This document shows positions 60,328 through 63,219 of a stretch of DNA of 64,000 bases, in pieces. A model generated the notes under the pieces. It saw only the letters and a list, made by a program, of their open reading frames with translations. It had not been told where the DNA came from and made no database searches. The translations under genes were made by a program, and so were the position numbers. The stretch's first letter is position 1. Each line of letters begins with the position of its first letter. Source of the stretch: Saccharothrix obliqua (GTDB lineage Bacteria > Actinomycetota > Actinomycetes > Mycobacteriales > Pseudonocardiaceae); the NCBI RefSeq assembly GCF_019375475.1, contig NZ_JAHXGQ010000001.1, forward strand, positions 1,116,001 to 1,180,000, given 5' to 3'.

Positions 60328-63219
60328 ATGACGACCTTCGACGAAAAGCTGGTGTCGGTGCTCGGGAAGAAGAGCGCCGACGCGCTGGAGAGCGGCCTCG
60401 GGCTGACCACGGTCGGCGAGCTGCTGCGGCACTACCCCCGGCGGTACGACGAGCGCGGCAAGCTCACCGAGATCAAGGGGCTGGAGCTGGGCGAGCACGT
60501 CACCGTGCAGGCCCGCGTGAAGAGCGCGCGCCAGCGGCGGATGAAGAGCCGCAGCGGGGAGCTGCTGGAGGCGGTGATCACCGACGGCTCGTCCGACCTG
60601 CACCTGGTGTTCTTCGGGCGCGGGTCGCGGAAGGTCGAGCGGGAGCTGCTGCCCGGTCGGGAGGCGATGTTCGCGGGGAAGGTCGGCGTGTTCAACGGCA
60701 AGCTCCAGCTCGCGCACCCCGACTACCAGGTGCTCGACGGAGGGGACCCGGAGGGCGCTGGAGGTGCCGAGGGCGACGCGGTCGCGCGGTTCGCGGGCGC
60801 GTTCATCCCCGTCTACCCGGCGGCGCAGGGCATCCAGTCGTGGAACGTGTCCAACTGCGTCGAGCAGGTGCTCGCGGTGTGGGACGGCGTGCCCGAGGAG
60901 GAGGACCCGCTGCCCGCCGACCTGCGTGCCGAGCACGGCCTGGTGCCGCTGGAGCGCGCGCTGCGGGACATCCACCGGCCGGACGGGTGGGCCGCGATCG
61001 CCGTGGCGCAGCAGCGCCTCAAGTGGGACGAGGCGATGGCCGTGCAGCTGGCCCTGGCACGCCGCCGCCGCTCGGCGACCGCCCGGCCCGCGCCCGCGTG
61101 CCCGCCCGTGCCGGGGCTGGTGCGGGACGCGTTCGACGCGCGGCTGCCGTTCGAGCTGACGGCCGGCCAGCGGGAGGTGGGCGAGCGGATCGCGCTCGAC
61201 CTGTCCGGCGAGCACCCGATGAACCGCCTGCTCCAGGGCGAGGTGGGCTCGGGCAAGGCGCAGCCGCTGGACGCGCTGGTGCTCACCACCGAGGGCTTCG
61301 TGCCGATGGGCGACGTCGAGATCGGCACCGAGGTGATCACCCAGGACGGCTCGGCCACCACCGTGACCGGCGTGTTCCCGCAGGGCGAGCGCGAGGTCTA
61401 CCGGGTGGTGCTGTCCGACGGGAAGTCCGTCGAGTGCGACCTGGACCACCTGTGGGCGACGCACGCGGGCGAGGTCGTCGCGCTCCGCGAGATCCGCGAG
61501 GACCTGCTCCGCCACGACGACCCGTCGCGCTGGCGGTTGCCCATGGTCGTCGCGCCGGACGTGGACTGCGTGGAACTCGCGCCGGTCAAGGAGCGGCACG
61601 AGCTGTTGCAGGGCCTGCTCACCACCGGCGGCCGGTGCGACGGGACGGACGTGGTGTTCCGCACCGAGTCCACCCACCTGGTCGAGTACGTGAGCGAGCT
61701 GGCGGAGTCGCTGGGCGGCACCGGGGTCGTGCGGTACGGCTACGAGACGCACGAGGTGACCGTGCGGCTGCCGGAGGAGTTCCCGCCGTTCCGCGACGCG
61801 CTGGACCGCACCGCGCCGCCCGCCCGCTACGTCGAGCGCGTCGAGTACGTGGGTGTGAAACCGGTGCAGTGCATCGCGGTCGCGCACCCGTCGCGGCTCT
61901 ACGTGACCGACCACTTCATCGTCACGCACAACACGATGGTGGCGTTGCGGGCGATGCTCCAGGTCGTGGACGCGGGCCGGCAGGCCGCCATGCTCGCGCC
62001 CACCGAGGTGCTGGCCGCGCAGCACGCGCGGTCGCTGCGGGAGCTGCTCGGCGACCTCGCCCGGGCCGGTGAGCTGGGTGGCGCGGAGCACGCGACCAGG
62101 GTGGCGTTGCTGACCGGCTCGATGCCCGCCGCGCAGCGGAAGAAGGCGTTGCTGGAGATCGTCACCGGTGAGGCCGGGATCGTGGTCGGCACGCACGCCC
62201 TGATCCAGGACAAGGTGGAGTTCGCCGACCTCGGCCTGGTCGTGGTGGACGAGCAGCACCGGTTCGGCGTCGAGCAGCGGGCCGCGCTCAGCGCCCGGCC
62301 CGGCGGGTCCACGCCGCACGTGCTGGTGATGACCGCGACCCCGATCCCGCGGACGGTCGCCATGACCGTGTACGGCGACCTGGAGGTGTCCGCGTTGCGC
62401 GAGCTGCCGCGGGGGCGTTCGCCGATCAGCACGTCCGTGGTGCCGGTGGCGGAGAAGCCCGCGTGGCTGGACCGGGCGTGGCAGCGCATCCGCGAGGAGG
62501 TCGGCAAGGGCCACCAGGTGTACGTGGTGTGCCCGCGCATCGGCGACGGCGAGGCCGAGGACCCGTCCGGCGACGAGCCGCCGAAGGAGGACGGTGCCGA
62601 CCGCCGGCCGCCGCTGGCCGTGGTGGACGTGGCGCAGCGCCTGGCCGAGGGCCCGTTGCGCGGCCTGCGGGTGGACGTCCTGCACGGCCGGATGCCGCCG
62701 GACGAGAAGGACGCCGTGATGCGGGCGTTCGCCGGCAACGAGGTGCAGGTGCTGGTCGCCACGACCGTGGTCGAGGTCGGCGTGAACGTGCCCAACGCCA
62801 CCGTCATGGTGATCATGGACGCGGACCGGTTCGGCGTGAGCCAGCTGCACCAGCTGCGCGGTCGGGTCGGCCGGGGCAGCGCGCCGGGCCTGTGCCTGCT
62901 GGTCACCGAGCTGCCCGGGGGCACGCCGACGATGGCGCGGCTGCGCGCGGTCGAGTCCAGCCTGGACGGCTTCGAGCTGGCGCAGCTCGACCTGGAGCTG
63001 CGTCGCGAGGGCGACGTCCTCGGCGCGGCGCAGTCGGGCACGCGGTCGGGGTTGAAGATGCTGTCGCTGTTGCGTGACGAGGACGTGATCGCCGACGCCC
63101 GGGTGGTCGCGCAGCGGGTCGTGGACGACGACCCGGACCTGGACCGGCACCCCGGTCTCGCGTCGCTCGTGCAGGGCCTGCTCGACGCGGAACGGGCGGA
63201 ATACCTGGAGAAGGCATAG
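60328..63219 (+). CDS. recG: ATP-dependent DNA helicase RecG, intein-containing precursor
   Basis: 963 residues. Residues 1-310 contain the wedge/OB domain (GEHVTVQARVKSARQRRMKS) and helicase motif Q; Walker A LLQGEVGSGK ends at Lys310. A 225-residue intein (311-535) interrupts the motif; after it TMVALRAML continues motif I, then VVVDEQHRFGVEQR (DExH box), VMTATPIPRT (motif III), DRFGVSQLHQLRGRVGRG (motif VI) and a TRG region. Without the intein the protein has 738 residues, the normal size for actinobacterial RecG. RecG remodels stalled forks and Holliday junctions. As the intein splits the phosphate-binding loop, the helicase can only be active after splicing. Confidence 0.96.
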   Translation: MTTFDEKLVSVLGKKSADALESGLGLTTVGELLRHYPRRYDERGKLTEIKGLELGEHVTVQARVKSARQRRMKSRSGELLEAVITDGSSDLHLVFFGRGSRKVERELLPGREAMFAGKVGVFNGKLQLAHPDYQVLDGGDPEGAGGAEGDAVARFAGAFIPVYPAAQGIQSWNVSNCVEQVLAVWDGVPEEEDPLPADLRAEHGLVPLERALRDIHRPDGWAAIAVAQQRLKWDEAMAVQLALARRRRSATARPAPACPPVPGLVRDAFDARLPFELTAGQREVGERIALDLSGEHPMNRLLQGEVGSGKAQPLDALVLTTEGFVPMGDVEIGTEVITQDGSATTVTGVFPQGEREVYRVVLSDGKSVECDLDHLWATHAGEVVALREIREDLLRHDDPSRWRLPMVVAPDVDCVELAPVKERHELLQGLLTTGGRCDGTDVVFRTESTHLVEYVSELAESLGGTGVVRYGYETHEVTVRLPEEFPPFRDALDRTAPPARYVERVEYVGVKPVQCIAVAHPSRLYVTDHFIVTHNTMVALRAMLQVVDAGRQAAMLAPTEVLAAQHARSLRELLGDLARAGELGGAEHATRVALLTGSMPAAQRKKALLEIVTGEAGIVVGTHALIQDKVEFADLGLVVVDEQHRFGVEQRAALSARPGGSTPHVLVMTATPIPRTVAMTVYGDLEVSALRELPRGRSPISTSVVPVAEKPAWLDRAWQRIREEVGKGHQVYVVCPRIGDGEAEDPSGDEPPKEDGADRRPPLAVVDVAQRLAEGPLRGLRVDVLHGRMPPDEKDAVMRAFAGNEVQVLVATTVVEVGVNVPNATVMVIMDADRFGVSQLHQLRGRVGRGSAPGLCLLVTELPGGTPTMARLRAVESSLDGFELAQLDLELRREGDVLGAAQSGTRSGLKMLSLLRDEDVIADARVVAQRVVDDDPDLDRHPGLASLVQGLLDAERAEYLEKA
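61258..61932 (+). other. Class 3-type intein in the Walker A motif of RecG
   Basis: The insert runs from Ala311 to Asn535 of the precursor, between GSGK and T(MVAL). Residue 1 is Ala, not Cys/Ser. The class 3 signature triplet is present: Trp376 (CDLDHLWATHAG, block B), Cys515 (KPVQCIAVAHPSRLYVTDHF, block F) and Thr533 (FIVTHN, block G), with penultimate His534, terminal Asn535 and +1 residue Thr536. The first beta segment LDALVLTTEGFVPMGDVEIG is block A. The middle (about residues 415-475) keeps one LAGLIDADG-like helix (ERHELLQGLLTTGGRCDG) and its downstream part (STHLVEYVSELAESLGG) but the acidic D-T-D-G reads TTGG, so the homing endonuclease is degenerate. Splicing itself is predicted to be intact. 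Confidence 0.9.

Follow-up and report, generated by a model that had tools for sequence, protein, structure and literature searches.

The window analyzed here is a stretch of 64,000 nucleotides from Saccharothrix obliqua (contig NZ_JAHXGQ010000001.1, positions 1,116,001 to 1,180,000 of the forward strand), and the element of interest is a 225-residue insert in its recG gene, lying in motif I between GSGK and T. From its residues and a structure model, we regard it as highly likely that the insert is a class 3 intein, formerly mobile, which now carries a dead half of its homing endonuclease and whose splicing would yield a RecG of 738 residues. The new point is the biased erosion that appears to have led down to this dead half-endonuclease.

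The frame at 60328-63219 on the plus strand runs through 963 codons with no internal stop, and the host is RecG by the curated NF008167 equivalog, which matches in two stretches with 1140.6 bits against a cut-off of 995. The first-pass annotation, made from the letters alone, had described a continuous RecG frame with 225 extra residues between GSGK and T, and the coordinates and length check bear this out, with GEVGSGK flanking the insert on the N side and TMVALRAML on the C side. Its residue numbers are all correct, Trp376, Cys515 and Thr533 of the precursor being W66, C205 and T223 of the insert, with His534-Asn535 being H224-N225 and Thr536 the +1 residue, and the 738 residues it gave for the mature protein are what is left when 225 is taken from 963. 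It had also proposed a comparison with intein-free RecG of close relatives. Among 25 genomes sampled from the genus, the same site is an uninterrupted GSGKT in 15, has a 225-230-residue insert in 7, the window's own included, and holds one of 342 residues in the other 3. Because the host scores above the curated RecG cut-off and both empty and filled sites occur across the genus, chance is excluded, and the insert is real and correctly placed.

The class 3 definition calls for a Trp at position 12 of block B, as given in PMC3196547. W66 of the insert aligns to the Trp engineered into 6riz and to the Trp of 6bs8, and C205 aligns to the engineered Cys of 6riz and the block F Cys of 6bs8, the native 6qaz having Asp there. 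Residue 1 of the insert is Ala and not Ser, Thr or Cys, T223-H224-N225 (THN) is invariant across an 82-row alignment (A3), and the +1 residue is Thr. The nearest profile and structural matches of the insert are class 3. The structure model used, which was built on the 82-row alignment, has a predicted Hint fold, and PI-SceI aligns to it over 218-221 residues. The Trp/Cys/Thr triplet, whose lack in relatives was to count against the class 3 call of the first-pass annotation, is conserved across a comparison of 131 distinct RecG inteins (the merged set is described below), as is Ala1 in all 131; Ala1 and THN are also found in 71 of 71 loci retrieved by an N-terminal query. Residues, profile and predicted fold thus agree on the call.

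Some points weigh against this reading. The Pfam intein and endonuclease models stay under their cut-offs on the insert (Hom_end_hint with 17.1 of 32.1 bits, LAGLIDADG_3 with 14.3 of 22.5, and Hint_2 with 13.1 of 28.4), and searches of the insert against Pfam and NCBIfam give no match over cut-off. For annotation, Pfam gathering cut-offs alone overlook the window's RecG intein. A first structure model, made with 10 close rows, was rejected as too poor, with a predicted local distance difference test (pLDDT) score of 56, and was replaced by the 82-row model. The class 3 assignment is drawn from residues, profile and predicted fold. The constraint on the intein is weaker than that on RecG, because omega for the Hint parts in the short clade is about twice that for the extein (0.311, limits 0.202-0.454, against 0.162).

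Features of the recG gene and its predicted intein, in window coordinates
Feature	Position	Strand	Remarks
recG with in-frame intein	60328..63219	+	963 codons and stop; NF008167 match
N-extein	60328..61257	+	310 residues; ends in Walker A GEVGSGK
Predicted class 3 intein	61258..61932	+	225 residues (A1 to N225)
Hint splicing domain, N-terminal part	61258..61482	+	Residues 1-75; blocks A and B; starts Ala-Gln-Pro
Block B D61-x-x-H64-x-W66	61438..61455	+	DxxH motif and class 3 Trp (B:12, codon 61453-61455)
Putative homing endonuclease remnant	61576..61773	+	One LAGLIDADG half; residues 107-172; approximate bounds
Degenerate LAGLIDADG motif 2	61603..61632	+	LLQGLLTTGG (LLQGLLDTDG in full-length relatives)
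Hint domain, C-terminal part	61837..61932	+	Residues 194-225; blocks F and G
Cys205	61870..61872	+	Block F:4; predicted first nucleophile; aligns with engineered Cys of 6riz
Thr223-His224-Asn225	61924..61932	+	Class 3 Thr (G:5), penultimate His, terminal Asn
C-extein	61933..63216	+	428 residues; begins with Walker A Thr, the predicted +1 nucleophile

The 342-residue relatives have two LAGLIDADG halves, with motifs such as LLGLLLGDG and LLQGLLDTDG. In the window's clade the first half is absent and the second motif is degenerate, reading LLSTGG once in place of the LLQGLLTTGG otherwise found. The remnant was located in the window's intein by alignment with these relatives, and the model makes it a folded helix-strand-strand-helix-strand-strand unit. 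In its motif the catalytic Asp has become Gly124 and the packing Gly119 is retained; an active LAGLIDADG endonuclease has two such halves, or a single one able to pair with itself, together with an acidic residue at the motif end. The window's intein has no acidic residue there, nor does any of the 7 distinct short inteins, all of which have Gly at that position.

How this remnant compares with other copies is seen in the set of 131 distinct RecG inteins, merged from the N-terminal-query, homology-scan and genus sets, with 73 full, 51 reduced and 7 short members; the full versus reduced boundary of 335 residues, like the bounds of the halves, was set by us. Second loci of already counted genomes (L027-L031) are excluded from the counts. 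The insert DNA of L059-L061, L093, L096 and L100 is identical to that of L003, L006, L007, L009, L010 and L011, and because identical rows inflate some tallies, the distinct counts are used where figures differ. The 71 N-terminal-query loci (70 from Streptomyces, and one from G523) divide into 26 reduced, under 335 residues, in which occupancy averages 0.34 over half 1 and 0.91 over half 2 (minimum for half 2, 0.83), and 45 full, with 0.99 and 0.94. Over the 131 distinct inteins, the half 1 and half 2 occupancies are 0.98 and 0.95 in full copies, 0.31 and 0.91 in reduced ones, and 0.00 and 0.91 in short ones, with half 2 exceeding half 1 in 51/51 reduced, 7/7 short and 1/73 full copies; in all 58 distinct reduced and short copies the loss is heavier in the first LAGLIDADG half than in the second. 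Motif 2 keeps its catalytic Asp in 69/73 full, 11/51 reduced and 0/7 short copies, and the packing Gly of its helix in every copy (73/73, 51/51 and 7/7). The reduced copies are not independent cases. A quick intein tree without bootstrap puts them in 9 clades, one of 40 rows, the starred branches of that tree force 3 changes only, and long branches may also attract reduced copies to one another; independent losses probably number somewhere between 3 and about 9. Two full-length copies of the genus (L009 and L011, from genomes G010 and G015) have motif 2 intact and the catalytic residue of motif 1 already changed to Gly (LLLGGG), perhaps an early stage of decay.

DnaB class 3 inteins of 139-145 residues are reported to splice without an endonuclease half (PMC6195587, PMC7664689), and therefore the half is not required by the class as such. 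Most likely, it is kept as a folded part that packs on or with the Hint splicing domain. A more doubtful idea is that the dead half of the reduced RecG inteins has been co-opted. Its helix, released from the first half, would pair with a second copy and so bring two RecG precursors together, or it would now serve the splicing domain as a part that this domain needs, and the half would have been kept in this role through repeated separate losses of the nuclease. If so, the erosion bias, by which half 1 and the Asp are lost and half 2 and its packing Gly are kept, would be selection and not chance.

In the short clade, omega for the half-endonuclease (residues 107-172) is 0.314, with limits of 0.140-0.585 (pooled, with bootstrap limits), and in the reduced group of Streptomyces, 15 loci picked by hand, it is 0.559 (0.418-0.730) versus 0.180 for the Hint parts. 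In the window's clade the half is therefore preserved to much the same degree as the Hint domain, and in Streptomyces it drifts. The possibility that the half is under special constraint in the window's clade was initially considered from a median omega of 0.174 over the stretch 107-156, a level like that of RecG, and was dropped, the pooled 0.314 being at the Hint level. Because that pooled value equals the Hint's and the half is relaxed in Streptomyces, we make no claim of strong selection acting over the entire half. Only the constraint on the LAGLIDADG-helix stretch 107-125 is striking, with an omega of 0.036 (0-0.116), though over just 19 codons.

Whether the copies move or stay can be approached by the ratio of synonymous divergence in the Hint parts to that in the extein, taken as the median of within-group pairs, which share branches, with L074 excluded for its short N-extein. 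Full copies give 2.32 in Streptomyces (230 pairs), 2.39 in Actinomadura (28), 2.60 in Lentzea (3) and 1.45 in the genus (3); reduced copies give 0.99 in Streptomyces (105 pairs, from a group of 15 loci picked by hand), and the short copies of the genus give 0.90 (21). A table of all pairs of 78 distinct inteins, which is not hand-picked, has ratios for full versus reduced copies of 2.34 versus 0.98 at extein divergence 0.15-0.30, 2.48 versus 1.12 at 0.30-0.45, and 2.00 versus 1.42 at 0.45-0.60. At 0.02-0.15 they are 0.98 (4 pairs) versus 0.57 (3 pairs), so that the contrast vanishes in the closest full pairs and shrinks in distant reduced pairs, as expected if the closest full copies have not yet moved and the distant reduced ones were separately acquired. 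The GC content at third codon positions (GC3) of insert versus extein is 0.987 versus 0.980 in distinct short copies (insert lower in 1/7), 0.831 versus 0.956 in distinct full copies (37/38), and 0.907 versus 0.944 in the other distinct reduced copies (19/34); because composition affects synonymous divergence, the two measures are not independent. In a RecG tree the full-length copies of the genus sit among empty relatives, and its short copies need two changes, one of them in 63% of 200 bootstrap trees. On the whole, these sequence measures set full-length RecG inteins, which look mobile, with a synonymous divergence about twice that of the host gene and a lower GC3, apart from reduced ones, which seem to descend mainly with the host gene. 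A homing cycle of the kind described in PMC8966425 is the simplest reading: full copies would spread across hosts, lose the endonuclease, and persist as residents.

RecG had been called a notable host for an intein of this class, a view that is not supported in that form: RecG is listed as an intein host in a review (PMC5874633), in a passage that gives neither class nor site, and the insert is present in 71 of the 392 Streptomyces genomes sampled, so a RecG host is not rare. A genome scan had given, among the best 80 of at least 508 confirmed candidates, 76 RecG loci with an insert at the same bond, all with Ala1, W, C and THN, and 4 with PhoH-type flanks. The patterns and ranking of that scan favor query-like inteins, and partly select for those very residues, and therefore an independent count was made with a query that joined the final 20 residues of the N-extein to the first 75 of the intein. 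The Streptomyces figure (from the genus of Streptomyces endophytica, L062, with the seed genome G102 included) comes from this count, where a RecG-type match has an E value of 5.8e-33 or better and starts at query residue 1 or 2, thus spanning the junction. When an intein-free RecG was the query, the insert was seen in 13 of 79 RecG-bearing genomes, the seed counted, and 3 more split matches prove on reading to be empty. In a phylum sample of 396 genomes there are 5 RecG-type matches, namely the window's own, 3 from one genus of the same class, and G523 (locus L292), which belongs to a different class. In the family sample (80 genomes, at least 79 with a match), all 27 newly read loci (L032-L058) are empty, and the other match pairs looked at abut. 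The window's intein is an ordinary class 3 member, part of a widespread RecG lineage. A search for papers on RecG inteins or class 3 RecG inteins found none, in a coverage that mostly excludes subscription papers; the passage of PMC1193525 that mentions inteins does so merely as a drawing convention. A viral source for the RecG intein was also considered, and set aside when a search of viral contigs for close relatives of the window's RecG found none, distant ones being beyond its detection.

By analogy with the class 3 pathway of relatives, we infer that the 963-residue precursor would be translated whole, that Cys205 would attack the Lys310-Ala1 bond at the N-terminal junction, and that the N-extein would be transferred onto the +1 Thr side chain, upon which Asn225 would cyclise to give the 738-residue RecG with an intact GSGKT. 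Because the insert separates the Walker A Lys from its Thr, the precursor should lack ATPase activity, and a need of splicing for that activity is a sound inference from the position of the insert. With half 1 of the endonuclease lost outright and half 2 without its catalytic Asp, the intein would be unable to home alone, and would be inherited with the host gene.

The first-pass annotation went further, suggesting a conditional switch, where splicing would be regulated, for example by oxidation of Cys205, and mature RecG made only in chosen conditions. We found no support for this and consider it unlikely. The precedent is the class 3 DnaB intein of Mycobacterium smegmatis, said in PMC6195587 to switch via a disulfide of its catalytic Cys, and the non-catalytic Cys60, Cys104 and Cys127 do not vary among the 7 distinct short RecG inteins, Cys60 being found in 124 of the 131. 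A redox switch of the DnaBi1 type was rejected, its partner Cys being missing: the site of DnaBi1 Cys48 is Val47 in the window's intein, and is Val in 128, Ile in 2 and Thr in 1 of the 131. No sequence result favors regulation as such, and the sporadic presence of the intein, with 15 of 25 genus genomes lacking it, opposes a switch that is generally needed. As a separate observation, Cys60 adjoins the Asp of the DxxH motif, and Ser takes its place in 6 distinct inteins, 5 of them full-length.

Less probable still is an inactive intein that has kept its residues and lost splicing, recG being effectively a pseudogene; a class 3-like intein that does not splice, Arth_1007, is described in PMC3196547, but it is without the block F Cys, and here all class 3 residues are retained, the carrier exteins are under strong purifying selection (omega 0.16), and each of the seven genomes of the genus with a short intein has kept the frame open. 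It is very improbable that the insert is a class 2 intein, or one of class 1 whose first residue has drifted. The class 1 gp41-1 does rank among the nearest relatives in the Protein Data Bank (PDB), but the profile prefers the gp41-1 variant engineered with exactly Trp and Cys, Trp at B:12 with Cys at F:4 is the class 3 signature, and drift sits poorly with Ala1 in every distinct copy. A permanent structural insertion in RecG can be practically dismissed, as no points were found in its favor and the Hint fold, the intein block residues, the scarless empty sites in relatives and a site within Walker A all speak against it.

Other inteins were seen along the way. The window's genome has a second one outside the window (G000:C12, locus L295 2-1777, minus strand), class 1 by its ends, which starts Cys-Leu-Ala-Gly-Asp-Thr and ends Val-Ser-His-Asn before Cys, in a radical SAM protein (PF04055, 53.4 bits; Intein_splicing, 30.9 bits, under the cut-off of 35.8). 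A DnaB of genus genome G018 (L299 863-3529; PF03796, 323.9 bits) has a class 3-type intein in its P-loop, reading GVGK then ALALD, with a THN end before Ser and endonuclease sequence still present. PhoH proteins with inteins of the form AQP...THN are encoded at L296 1089-3308 (genus genome G001) and L101 2293-4161 (PF02562, about 300 bits each), the insertion lying between MRGR and Thr, away from the usual P-loop; L104, L112, L116 and L298 share these flanks. Among viral loci L139-L218, many contigs have class 3-type inteins of the form AQP...THN, hosted by P-loop proteins among others, and L143 has two different ones in one stretch.

The RecG inteins form a natural series at one site across genera, with empty, full and mobile-looking, half-eroded, and short resident states, and therefore the homing cycle is testable at close range. 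A class 3 family that retains half of a dead endonuclease bears on the mutual dependence of splicing and endonuclease domains. Roughly one fifth of the sampled Streptomyces genomes should need RecG splicing before ATP can be used.

Closest to the window's intein are the full-length RecG inteins of the genus, Lentzea, Actinomadura and Streptomyces, of 336-344 residues, which share its host, site, AQP start and THN end, with identities of 60-64% for the genus and two Lentzea copies and about 50-55% for the others; they differ from it in having two LAGLIDADG motifs, mostly with the motif 2 Asp, and in looking mobile. PI-SceI, the VMA1 intein (PDB IDs: 1jva, 1ef0), is a class 1 intein with an active endonuclease, and has two LAGLIDADG halves where the window's intein has one. 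The class 3 inteins of phage P-loop ATPases and of PhoH share with it, in most cases, the AQP start, as well as Trp-Cys-Thr where aligned and the THN end, and are inserted mostly after Lys or Arg and before Thr, as it is; the phage hosts differ, with no RecG in the flanks read for 67 of the 80 viral loci. The DnaB class 3 inteins of M. smegmatis (DnaBi1, 6bs8) and M. chimaera (6rix) have a +1 Ser where the RecG intein has Thr, and they lack the endonuclease half that the window's intein keeps, along with having, in DnaBi1, Cys48 at the position of Val47. The PhoVMA intein, as described in PMC8966425, resembles the window's intein in keeping an endonuclease fold despite the loss of its catalytic Asp residues, but it keeps both halves, and is an archaeal VMA intein with Cys1 (C1A in the solved form).
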